Assembly (NCBI RefSeq): GCF_036898825.1
Contig: NZ_JARUND010000002.1
Location: forward strand, 682,001 to 746,000
DNA from: Streptomyces sp. B21-083
Lineage (GTDB): Bacteria > Actinomycetota > Actinomycetes > Streptomycetales > Streptomycetaceae
Direction of reading: 5' to 3'
Length of the DNA: 64,000 nt
A model generated the notes under the pieces. It did not search any database. It was not told where the DNA came from and worked only from the letters and a program-made list of their open reading frames with translations. Shown in pieces: positions 59,647 through 64,000 of this stretch. Every line of letters begins with the position of its first letter. The stretch's first letter is position 1. The position numbers and the translations under genes are program-made.

Positions 59647-60969
59647 GTGAAGGTTCAGTTGGTGCGCTCCGCCCGACGCAACGAACCATGGGCCTTCCTC
59701 CCTCCGGATGCGCGGCCTGCCGCACCGCCGCGGGTCCACTTCGAGCCGATCGCCTCGGGCGACGTACTGCTCGGCTTCCGTGACTCGGAGACGGCCCGCC
59801 GGATCCGCCGGCACTACAACGACGCCGTGGCCATCGACATGGAGAGCCACGGCGTCACCCACGCGGCCAGGATGAACCGCGCGGTACGGGCTCTCTCCAT
59901 CCGCGGCATCAGCGACCTCGCCGACGCGGACAAGGCCACGCGCGACGCCGCCGGCTCCCAGGAGACCGCGGCGCGGCACGCCGCGGCCTTCGCACTGCGA
60001 GTACTGCGCGACCTGCGACCCGCCGGGCGACCGGCCCAGGCGCGGCCTCCGGGGCCCGCCGTCATCGTGGTGTCCGGCCCCGACCGTGACCCCGGCCCAG
60101 CGGCCTGGGACAGCCGACCTGTCATCAGGGTCGAGGGACGGGAGTACCTGCTCTACGAAGGCCCTGGAGACCTCCTTCACGAGTCGCGGGACGGCGACGT
60201 GCTACGGCGTCAGGCCGTGGCGCGGGTGGTGTCTGACGGGGACACCACCCGCGGCACCTACGCCTGGCTGCGCCAGGTCGAGTGGACACGGCCTCTGCCC
60301 GGCCCGGGCCGCTTCGACCCTCTGGCCGCGCTCGAACAGGAAGCCCGGCTGTGCCGTGGTCTCCGCGGCCCTGACGTCGTACAGCTGACCCGTAGCGGGA
60401 ACACCGCCACTCTCGCTCTGGCCTGGCCCGGCGACCCCGAGCTCGGCCGCCCCCTGAAGACCCTCCACGAGCTGCTGCCCGAACCTGCGGTGCCGACGGA
60501 TCCACTGCGCCTGTGGTCAATCGTCAGAGGGCTCGCCCAAGTTGCCGAGGTCCTTGAGCGGCTGAGTGGCGAGCGGTTGTCGCACCGGGCGCTCCAGCCG
60601 ACCGTGGTCGTCATGCACCGACCACACATGGTGCTGCGGGACTTCGGTCTCGCCACCGTGCCACCACGGCCGGGCGAGAACCCCGGTCCCTATCAGGCGC
60701 CGGAGCAGCGGTACGGCTCCGGCGTCCGCCCCGGGCCCGCCACCGACGTCTACCAACTGGGCGCACTGCTGTACCGCGCGCTGACCGGCCGCGTCCCCGA
60801 GCCCGGGCTGCCTCCCTACCGCGGCTCGGCCTCCGTACCGGACGGTCTTGTCCATGCGGTCGCCGAGGCCCTGCGGGAGGACCCAGGGGGCCGACCAGCC
60901 GTCCGCACGCTGCGCCTCGCTCTACTCGCCGCCGCACGCGAGCTGATGTCAGTCCCGCCCCCGCGCTGA
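59647..60969 (+). CDS. Truncated nucleoside-phosphorylase domain fused to a pseudokinase
   Basis: A 440-aa protein. Residues about 30-120 match the C-terminal half of MTA/SAH-nucleosidase-type phosphorylases: VHFEPIASGDVLL, AVAIDMESHGVTHAAR with the ribose-binding Glu, and ALSIRGISDLAD with the catalytic Asp. The N-terminal half of that fold is missing, and an in-frame TAA at 59626 prevents an upstream start. Residues about 165-440 form a protein-kinase-like domain. The usual Lys is not evident and HRD is LSHRALQPTVVVM, but DFG (LRDFGLATVP) and APE (YQAPEQRYG) remain, so it is probably a pseudokinase. Kinases and phosphorylases in this mix occur in bacterial conflict operons. The GTG has no clear ribosome site. 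Confidence 0.75.
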   Translation: MKVQLVRSARRNEPWAFLPPDARPAAPPRVHFEPIASGDVLLGFRDSETARRIRRHYNDAVAIDMESHGVTHAARMNRAVRALSIRGISDLADADKATRDAAGSQETAARHAAAFALRVLRDLRPAGRPAQARPPGPAVIVVSGPDRDPGPAAWDSRPVIRVEGREYLLYEGPGDLLHESRDGDVLRRQAVARVVSDGDTTRGTYAWLRQVEWTRPLPGPGRFDPLAALEQEARLCRGLRGPDVVQLTRSGNTATLALAWPGDPELGRPLKTLHELLPEPAVPTDPLRLWSIVRGLAQVAEVLERLSGERLSHRALQPTVVVMHRPHMVLRDFGLATVPPRPGENPGPYQAPEQRYGSGVRPGPATDVYQLGALLYRALTGRVPEPGLPPYRGSASVPDGLVHAVAEALREDPGGRPAVRTLRLALLAAARELMSVPPPR

Positions 60970-60981
60970 GGAGCGTCACCC

Positions 60982-61242
60982 ATGTCCATCGCCACCGTCA
61001 CCTTGCGGGCTCCACTGGTGCTCGTCCCGGGGCGCGGCCTTGACGAACAGCTCCGTACCAAAGCTGAATCCAGCGCGGGCATGCCGCCCCACGTGTCGCA
61101 GATCGTCCGCGATCTGAACCAGCTCGAAGGCGGCGCCGCCGTGAGTGTGAGCCCGGCGAACGGCAGGTACAAAGCATCGTTGCTGGTTCACACGCGCACG
61201 TATCGCTTGCGCCTCGAGGCCACGAACCGAGGTACCGGCTGA
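60982..61242 (+). CDS. Small CU044_2847-like protein
   Basis: The 86-aa protein begins MSIATVTLRAPLVLVPGRGL, with Gly/Asp loops and SQIVRDLNQLEGGAAVSVSP. It ends in a strand pair (YKASLLVHTRTYRLRLEATN). It resembles, from memory, small proteins of the CU044_2847 family that accompany trypsin-like, kinase or AAA components in actinobacterial conflict systems; their function is unknown. ATG follows GGAG by 9 bp, 12 bp after the pseudokinase gene. Its TGA overlaps the ATG of the third gene (TGATGA), which the intron splits. Confidence 0.6.
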   Translation: MSIATVTLRAPLVLVPGRGLDEQLRTKAESSAGMPPHVSQIVRDLNQLEGGAAVSVSPANGRYKASLLVHTRTYRLRLEATNRGTG

Positions 61243-61245
61243 TGA

Positions 61246-61337
61246 GTCGGCACGGAGCGCGGTGCCGGTGTTGCCATCGGTCCGTTTCTCCGTGCCGCTC
61301 GCCGAACCCGGCGTGCGGCTCTCACCGCACCGGGCTC
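61246..61337 (-). ncRNA. Group II intron domains V and VI
   Basis: Domain V (61337-61304 on the minus strand) folds as an 8-bp stem gagcccgg/ccgggttc, a small ACG bulge, an upper stem gcggt/gccgc and a GAGA (GNRA) tetraloop; the AGC triad is in the lower stem. Domain VI follows with a 9-bp basal stem (ctccgtgcc / ggcacggag on the plus strand, 61288-61296 and 61249-61257). The stem and short tail reach the 3' end at 61246. The branch-point A could not be fixed. Confidence 0.8.
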
Positions 61338-61354
61338 TCCACGGTCTCTGCCGT

Positions 61355-62818
61355 TCAAGCGTGGTTGAGTGTCCAGGGATTGGGGATCGTGTTGCCCCGG
61401 TAGCGATAGCGGGTGACCGCCGTCGAGACCATGGGGAACAGTTCGATCCCGTCCGCCGAGAGCCTGTGCCACCGGCCGTTGCGGTCGGTGAAGCGTCGGC
61501 GGACGTCCTTCCACCTCCAGCGGTGCAGCACCATCCACCAGCTGGTCACCCGTCGCCATACGAACTGGTCCAGGGCTTTCAGCGTGGTCTTGCATACCGC
61601 ATGCTTGAAGTAGTTGACCCAGCCGCGCAGAATCGAGTTGATCCTCTTGAGCACGGTCCCCGGGTCCTGCTGCGACGTTCTGTTCGTCAGGGCACGGATC
61701 TTGTCCTTCAAGTGCCGGATGGGCCTCTCGGCGATGAAGGTGTAGACGTACCACTTGTTCGAGCCTCGCTTGCGGCGCCACTGGATGTGGAACCCCAGGA
61801 AGTCGAACCCGTCCGACATGTGCACGATCTGGGTCTTGGCCGGTGACAGCCTCAGCCCGAGAGGGTGCAGTACGTCGGCGATGTCCTCGCGCAGGCGGGC
61901 GACGTCGTCACGGCTGCCGTCGACCAGCACAACGAAATCGTCCGCGTAGCGGACGATGCGCCAGTTCGGGCGGCCGTGGTGACGGTGGTGCGCCCGCCTG
62001 CCTCTGGTGGACATCCGACCGCCTGGTTCCCACGGCCCCATCACGTGCTCGTCGAGCTCGGACAGAGCGATGTTCGCCAGAAGCGGGGAGAGGATGCCGC
62101 CCTGCGGGGTGCCGGTGAAGGTCTCTTCGCGGCCGCCGCCCTCGGTGAGGGCGCCGGCCTTGAGGAACGCCTTGACCAGCCGCAGCACACGCTTGTCCTT
62201 GACCCTCGCGCGCACCCGGTCCAGCAGGGCCGTGTGGTCGATGGAGTCAAAACACGCCTCGATGTCCGCGTCCAGCACCCAGCGATAGCCGTTGGTGCCG
62301 TAGCGGTGGATCTCGGCGATCGCGTCGTGTGCGCGCCGCATGGGCCGGAAACCGTAGGAGACCGGCAGGAAGTCGGCCTCGAAAATCGGCTCCAGCACCA
62401 GTTTGAGGGCTGCCTGGACCACACGGTCGGAGACGGTCGGGATGCCGAGCTTGCGCACCTTCCCGCTCCCGCCGGGTTTGGGGATCTTGCGCTCGCGCAC
62501 CGGCAGCGGGCGAAATTCACCCGTCTTCAGTACGCGTCGTAGGTCCTCCAGGTAGCCCGGGAGGCCGAGTTCCCGTTCAACGTTGACGACGGTGAGGCCG
62601 TCGACGCCCGGGGTCCGGGCTCCCTTGTTTCCCGCGACCCGTTCGAACGCCACGAGCAGCGTCGCCGGGTCGCATACGAGGTTGAACAGATCGTCGAACC
62701 TGCGGCCATGGTCGGCCGCCGCCCAACGGTGAAGCTTGGTCTGCATCCCCGATACCCGCTGGTGAGACCCCAACGGGGCCTCGGGAGCACTGCTGTTCAG
62801 CAGCGCGTCTTTCGGCAT
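61355..62818 (-). CDS. ltrA: Group II intron reverse transcriptase/maturase
   Basis: The 487-aa protein has RT blocks: NKGARTPGVDGLTVVNVERE (about 54-73), VRKLGIPTVSDRVVQAALKL, SYGFRPMRRAHDAIAEIHRY, GTPQGGILSPLLANIALSEL, the catalytic YADDFVVLV and LSPAKTQIVHMSDGFDFLGF. The maturase (X) domain is near 380-450 (LKRINSILRGWVNYFKHAVC, TWWMVLHRW-like region). No HNH endonuclease domain follows, so mobility may rely on nicks at replication forks or single-stranded targets. AAGGAGG precedes the ATG at 62818. Catalytic residues are intact, so the intron may be active. Confidence 0.92.
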   Translation of the reverse strand: MPKDALLNSSAPEAPLGSHQRVSGMQTKLHRWAAADHGRRFDDLFNLVCDPATLLVAFERVAGNKGARTPGVDGLTVVNVERELGLPGYLEDLRRVLKTGEFRPLPVRERKIPKPGGSGKVRKLGIPTVSDRVVQAALKLVLEPIFEADFLPVSYGFRPMRRAHDAIAEIHRYGTNGYRWVLDADIEACFDSIDHTALLDRVRARVKDKRVLRLVKAFLKAGALTEGGGREETFTGTPQGGILSPLLANIALSELDEHVMGPWEPGGRMSTRGRRAHHRHHGRPNWRIVRYADDFVVLVDGSRDDVARLREDIADVLHPLGLRLSPAKTQIVHMSDGFDFLGFHIQWRRKRGSNKWYVYTFIAERPIRHLKDKIRALTNRTSQQDPGTVLKRINSILRGWVNYFKHAVCKTTLKALDQFVWRRVTSWWMVLHRWRWKDVRRRFTDRNGRWHRLSADGIELFPMVSTAVTRYRYRGNTIPNPWTLNHA

Positions 62819-63413
62819 TGCAGCCTCCTTCCCTTCTCGAAACCGCTGCCGCCCTTCCCCATGTGCCGGGCTCTCCCCGGCTCGGAGTACTACGGCGGCT
62901 CCGCCCCGTCCCGGCCCGATCGGCCGACGATGGACCCAGCCCATCCGCCGTGCTGGAGGCGCGGTTTGAGGGCGGGGGCCGGGACGGTTCCCGTGTTCAC
63001 TCGCTGTTCGATCGTCGGAGTAGGAGCCCGGCTATGCCCCCGCGGCCTCGCCACGGCTACCCCGCAGCACTTCACCGTGGCCTCCCCGCGCGACCGAAGT
63101 AGACCGCGCGGAAAGTTCCCCGCCAACGGACCAACCAGCGGGGACGCACCGCATCCAGCCCAGATCCACCAGGTTCGAGCTGGCGTGCCTTAAGGAGGCG
63201 TAGACGCCGGTTCCTCGCGTACTCCTCTCCGTCTCGCTCGCCGGACCCGCACCATCTGGCAGTACTGGCACGTCCCGGCTTTGTCAGGGCTGCTTCCCGC
63301 CCTCCCCGGCACCTCCCGGGTCAGGCTGCCCCCAGCTTCAACCGCCCTGCTGCGACAGCGCGGCGGTGGTGGTCTTTCACCTCCACTCGAACAACAAGCG
63401 CCTCACGGCGCAC

Positions 63414-64000
63414 ACCTCGTCAAGCACATCGATCCGCTCCGCCTCGCCGATCACGCGCGTCTCGCGCGCTCCTGCCTCCTGGTGCGCCCGCGGTCCTGGC
63501 AGCTGGTGTTCGAACTGATGGCTGTGCCCGAGGGCTCGGACGCCCAGTGGCAGGACCTTGAGAAGGCCTGGCAGAGCCTTGGCCAAGCACAGACGCAGCA
63601 GCGGGAAACGCCTTCCGTCAGCGAAGCCCAGTCGGAATTCCTCGACACGGTGGACCGGCTGATCGACGCGACCGAGGAGATCACCACCCGGGAGGAGCGC
63701 GCGGCCGCCCCGTTCCCGTATCAGCGCCTCACGACCACAGGAGGCAAGCGCAGCAGCACTCCGCAGTCGGTCTACGAATTCCACCTCGTCGGGCCGGAGC
63801 TACCGCCGGCCGGCGCCTTCGTCCGCATACAGGGCGACACGGAGAGCCGGGGGAAAGTGAACCGAGCGGCGGGACGTTCCGTCACTGTCCGCTTCGATCA
63901 GCCCGTGTCGTGGGAGCGGCTGCCGGCGCGCGGTGCTCTGGAACTCATCCCGAGCAGCGTGATCTTCAACAAGCAGCGACAGGCCTCCGCACGTGGGGCA
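63414..64000 (+). pseudogene. Third gene of the pseudokinase operon, cut at codon 2 by the intron; partial
   Basis: The frame from 63414 is open to the window end. If joined to ATGA at 61242-61245 it reads MNLVKHIDPLRLADHARLAR, with later blocks DTVDRLIDATEEITTREER and VYEFHLVGPELPPAGAFVRI, QGDTESRGKVNRAAG, and SWERLPARGALELIPSSVIF NKQRQ. The last parts resemble the region before the ATPase core of large AAA/SF1-helicase-like proteins, but no Walker A box is in view, so this is a weak guess. Without the intron its start would overlap the previous stop (TGATGA). Expression could restart from internal GTG or ATG codons (63482, 63518). Native function is likely impaired. Confidence 0.7.

Follow-up and report, generated by a model that had tools for sequence, protein, structure and literature searches.

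An antisense group II intron splits codon 87 of a Mokosh-like helicase gene in Streptomyces

Results

A Mokosh-like operon with a divided helicase gene

The window, by which we mean the whole 64,000-nt stretch of Streptomyces DNA analysed here, ends within a helicase gene that is divided by a group II intron lying on the opposite strand (Table 1). An intact counterpart of this gene is found in genome G117, where it belongs to a three-gene operon (L093:2846-8853); the same operon is broken in the window, from 59647 to 64000 and beyond. The G117 helicase has the Pfam domains AAA_11 and AAA_12, and PADLOC run on the intact operon matched it to MkoA (2.5e-102) and the next gene to MkoB (7e-17). 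The host gene encodes an SF1-type helicase akin to MkoA, a component of the Mokosh defence system. The gene preceding the helicase in G117 encodes PNP_UDP_1 fused with a kinase-like region, the latter with a score under the Pfam cut-off; the kinase-like and helicase parts, which are joined in the MkoA profile, are on separate proteins in G117. NERD and PLD-like are among the domains tabulated for Mokosh type I (PMC10952713); in a Pfam search of the three G117 proteins, neither was detected at E ≤ 0.01. Because these two domains were not found and a PNP-containing protein, not the helicase, carries the kinase-like part, we call the operon Mokosh-like only. A literature search for Mokosh with a nucleosidase yielded no paper.

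Table 1. Features of the interrupted locus (window coordinates).
Feature	Position	Strand	Basis
Gene 1 of operon, PNP_UDP_1 + kinase-like, 5′ part missing	59647..60969	+	G314 homology from 59656
Host helicase gene, part before intron (codons 1-86 and first base of codon 87)	60982..61240	+	blastp/blastn to G314, other intact homologues
Group II intron, 2173 nt, 5′ GTGCG / 3′ CATC	61241..63413	-	Family ends, empty site G314, identical copy L002
Domains V + VI	61241..61339	-	Rfam RF00029, 49 bits
Intron-encoded reverse transcriptase/maturase, 529 aa from first ATG	61355..62944	-	ORF, RVT_1, GIIM, TIGR04416
EBS1 (putative), intron nt 314-319	63095..63100	-	Exon covariation over 85 introns; 6/6 paired
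EBS2 (putative), intron nt 224-230	63184..63190	-	Exon covariation over 85 introns; 7/7 paired
Host helicase gene, part after intron, continuing beyond window	63414..64000	+	blastp/blastn to G314, other intact homologues
5′ exon: IBS1 63414-63419, IBS2 63422-63428	63414..63428	-	Pairing 13/13
10-bp deletion with frameshift relative to G314	63985..63986	+	blastn gap

The intron and its protein

A first-pass annotation, made from the letters of the window, had recognized a minus-strand group II intron with a GNRA loop in domain V and an intact maturase, and both features are borne out. The Rfam RF00029 match, running from 61339 to 61241, exceeds the gathering score of 40, and the domain V loop is GAGA. 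The maturase frame is open without a stop over its full length, contains the Pfam domains RVT_1 and GIIM, and passes NCBIfam TIGR04416 with 375 bits against a cut-off of 300. Pfam reported no endonuclease domain in the intron protein at E 0.1. By sequence, its best solved relatives are the GsI-IIC RT and LtrA; it also matched many PADLOC RT and HEase profiles, which we attribute to its RT region. Most of the closest intron loci come from actinobacteria, including several from Streptomyces.

An empty site defines the intron ends

Most family alignments, made with relatives from 79 loci, begin at the base homologous to 63413, where the window intron reads GUGCG; the GUGYG 5′ end annotated at this position therefore holds. 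The common 3′ end of the family is GACYCAAC, and its counterpart in the window is GACTCATC, ending at 61241. The same ends emerge from an intron-free site in genome G314 (locus L126). Its upstream flank aligns gap-free up to window position 61240 (217/240 identical) and its downstream flank begins at 63414 (260/301 identical; a single 3-base gap lies further along). As 61240 and 63414 are adjacent bases in G314, the intron occupies 61241-63413, and relative to G314 the host has neither gained nor lost a base. The two identical copies of the intron in this genome (see below) cannot fix the ends by themselves, because the neighbouring bases agree at 2 or 3 positions on each side; beyond these the flanks differ. 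A 5′ end at 63415 (GTGTG) was rejected because most family alignments start from 63413 and host homology from 63414, and a 3′ end at 61242 (AU) was ruled out by the absence of base 61241 from the empty site.

The first-pass annotation had placed the 3′ end at 61246, with an AY terminus. This is five bases off: the length is 2173 rather than 2168 nt, and the intron ends in UC (CATC). Fitting the covariance model, one of the checks it had proposed, upheld the intron RNA core, with the RF00029 match running to 61241. The proposed search for empty-site homologues gave a junction other than the predicted one: G314 lacks 61241-61245, bases that had been assigned to the host.

Two apparent genes are one

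The five-base shift changes the meaning of the locus to one gene with no overlap. The earlier model had a TGATGA stop/start overlap followed by a separate third gene beginning ATG AAC CTC GTC. The apparent overlap arises from the intron end: TGATGA consists of a host T and the intron's own 3′ end bases, so that the stop after residue 86 is made by the intron, and the downstream frame belongs to the same gene, whose codon 87 (Tyr, T|AC) is split. When searched separately, the 86-aa ORF (60982-61242) and the downstream frame aligned to consecutive parts of a single protein in four genomes; the identities to the G314 protein are 88% over residues 1-86 and 87% over residues 89-278. All four intron-free homologues (G314, G416, G257 and G117) read through the intron site without a stop or restart, with a Tyr at or one residue from the split site. 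The G117 helicase is 986 aa long without a stop, and those of G314, G416 and G257 are open for 907-909 aa, read to the edge of the locus sequence. Among 392 genomes of the genus, 16 gave a match, namely the window's own genome, these four and 11 others in which the match begins no earlier than query residue 187 and so covers just the helicase part. A tblastn search of plasmids with the downstream helicase piece yielded no match.

It is scarcely credible, then, that an intron of 61246-63413 interrupts a third gene after its second codon, with the ATG of that gene overlapping the preceding stop. Its excision does leave an open frame from an ATG in the window sequence, and an AC end is available at 61246/61247; against this, bases 61241-61245 are missing from G314, the four homologues are one protein through the site, and the family 3′ ends align to 61241. 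The target site that this excision seemed to fix is thus wrong, as the G314 empty site demonstrates. In the corrected gene model, an antisense retroelement has cut a single gene into what look like two, and the bases that misled are derived from the intron.

Further lesions in the operon

Gene 1 of the window matches only positions 140-233 of the PNP_UDP_1 profile. The 10-bp deletion in the helicase gene at 63985/63986 is a lesion independent of the intron, and the helicase motifs beyond the window continue in another frame after it. Being ten bases long, this deletion is less likely to be a sequencing error than a single-base gap would be. Pairwise dN/dS values of the three pieces against G314 are 0.20-0.22, which implies that the pieces diverged mostly under constraint.

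These lesions bear on whether the antisense intron has been kept to regulate the operon, for instance through an antisense RNA or by restarting the downstream half. In favour, the intron is intact and contains a TTG at 63281 from which an open frame enters the downstream helicase half. That frame, however, stops soon past the 10-bp deletion without including the helicase motifs, which are in another frame; gene 1 is truncated, and all other copies of the operon that we saw are intron-free. We regard a regulatory role as very unlikely. The earlier statement that the intron inactivates or rewires a third gene survives in its first part, as the insertion is gene-disrupting, and is weakened in its second, there being no third gene, a 10-bp frameshift and a gene 1 without its 5′ part. 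The Mokosh-like operon can be marked as broken in the window strain and as uninterrupted at this site in four relatives.

The insertion site pairs fully with the intron

We searched for exon-binding sequences by comparing the pairing of each intron with its own exon against shuffled exons (SD from 30 permutations), after 89 introns had been cut to 85 by identical exon. Intron nt 224-230 covaried with exon positions -15 to -9 (z up to 13.3) and nt 314-319 with positions -6 to -1 (z 10-11), while the best unrelated place reached a z of about 5. From this covariation we read the two segments as the probable EBS2 and EBS1. With G-U pairs counted, the window site pairs at 13/13 positions and is the sole such position among 127,970 on both strands of the window. 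Pairing of the 13 positions is also complete for L094, and amounts to 12 for L075, 11 for L002 and L003, 10 for L038 and 9 for L008. Across the 85 introns the mean at these fixed places is 7.6/13 for the own exon versus 5.5 for non-own exons, so many distant members are not fully paired there. Across the window's own genome, two unoccupied sites fit the pairing pattern in full, a number equalled by the reversed control pattern.

Group IIC introns are without an EBS2-IBS2 interaction and insert after terminators. Assignment of the window intron to this group was rejected, as EBS2-IBS2 covariation is present and the insertion is within coding sequence.

Other copies and their orientation

A second copy in the same genome (L002, C2:315915-318104) is identical across the whole intron. 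This copy, L003 and L075 each interrupt a transposase gene in antisense orientation. In all three, the frame past the intron aligns to DDE_Tnp_4 starting at profile position 22, with L003 scoring below the Pfam curated cut-off; on the opposite flank, HTH_Tnp_4 is recognized at L002 and L075, with L002 below the cut-off. L003 (G000:C2:1131584-1132181) is a 5′ remnant of a related intron with 94% identity, and L004 (G000:C1:1306779-1306886) a 3′ remnant with 79% identity; both are in the window's own genome. The 3′ flank of L007, the flank considered at this locus, contains a DUF4096 transposase frame in antisense, L038 has a weak HTH_Tnp_4 hit in the adjoining sense frame, and the L094 flank has no domain hit.

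The position of L002 within a transposase gene could be taken to mean that DNA recombination or transport within an IS, and not reverse splicing of its RNA, brought the intron to the helicase gene. Since the flanks of the two identical copies differ beyond a few bases, and the insertion relative to G314 is clean, we hold such an arrival to be extremely unlikely.

In a composition-based survey of 58 introns with both flanks classified, 12 were in-phase sense, four in-phase antisense (L002, L075, L065 and L072), three mismatched and 39 weak; sense insertion is thus commoner than antisense in the wider family. The flank of L065 encodes an aromatic-ring hydroxylase domain, which indicates that antisense insertion in the wider family is not limited to transposases. 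The window intron is itself classed as weak in this survey, and its orientation rests on homology.

Five relatives (L075, L038, L007, L008 and L094) have the same 5′ end and ~85-86% DNA identity to the window intron. Their EBS letters and sites differ from those of the window intron, the EBS regions of L075, L038, L008 and L094 being at the same places, and only L075 among the five is shown inside a transposase gene.

Terminal nucleotides

Both identical copies end in CATC (61241-61244 in the window), whereas L007, L038 and L075 end in CAAC and L094 in CTAC. We compared termini across the family, starting from 94 introns with a 5′ end; 32 of these had no placed 3′ end, leaving 62, in which the 3′ ends of distant introns are extrapolated and possibly off by at least one base. 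Forty-four begin with G and end in AC, nine begin with T and end in GC, two (the window and L002 copies) begin with G and end in UC, and seven have other ends, some perhaps misplaced. The nine UUGCG...GC introns, which include L010, L011, L017 and L019, form a sub-lineage. A T at position 1 goes with a penultimate G in 9/9 introns and a G at position 1 with a penultimate A in 44/53, which suggests that the first and penultimate nucleotides covary naturally. These nucleotides are described as interacting (PMC3669008, PMC4238363). The intron RmInt1 is described as ending in CC, which makes AY a consensus rather than a strict rule, and changing its penultimate C is reported to impair the second splicing step, most severely with G and U (PMC4238363). 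Given the pyrimidine at its own penultimate position, this interaction and the RmInt1 mutants, the UC-ended window copy may splice or move poorly.

Discussion

The locus is very probably the product of an ectopic move of an IS-associated intron, on the minus strand, into codon 87 of an MkoA-like helicase gene that was thereby unconditionally disrupted. A mobile intron, whose lineage also lies antisense within IS transposase genes, would have recognized an ectopic minus-strand site by full pairing with its EBS1 and EBS2, and recent retrotransposition would have broken the gene there. The clean insertion and the EBS/IBS pairing point to this route. The host transcript would carry only the complement of the intron and would be unspliceable, so the gene should be broken unconditionally; the first-pass annotation had likewise reasoned that splicing of the host mRNA could not remove the intron, and antisense group II insertions are described as impossible to splice out (PMC3898094). 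A movement from the IS site to the helicase gene is a plausible direction, with the counterpoint that the identical copy there pairs at only 11/13 positions.

The insertion is ordinary in kind, though cleanly resolved: it is a natural case of what appears to be unconditional disruption, the target matching the intron at all 13 guide positions, and an identical copy lies in an IS. More tentatively, and with somewhat more doubt than belief, we consider that the regular home of the lineage is antisense in an IS transposase gene, and that a change in EBS1 relative to L075 created full pairing with the helicase site, at the cost of the gene. If so, every homing event would permanently kill a transposase, with no sparing by splicing. 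A search for Streptomyces, group II intron and antisense returned no title on natural antisense introns among the titles screened.

Among known systems, RmInt1 of Sinorhizobium meliloti (bacterial class D/IIB3) is likened to the window intron by features, not by class. As described, both are associated with IS elements, have no endonuclease domain and enter ectopic, IBS-like genic sites (PMC4238363, PMC5894124), and both have an unusual pyrimidine at the penultimate position (PMC4238363). The usual target of RmInt1 is an IS, and its reported ectopic entry into oxi1, which has a similar IBS (PMC5894124), is a close precedent for the window insertion. The host groups of the two introns differ, and RmInt1 is described as needing to splice for the transposase to be expressed, whereas the IS copies of the window lineage are antisense. 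Antisense targetron insertions, which are described as disrupting a gene unconditionally because its transcript carries the intron complement (PMC3898094), resemble the window intron in this respect; targetrons are engineered for laboratory use, whereas the insertion in the window is natural.
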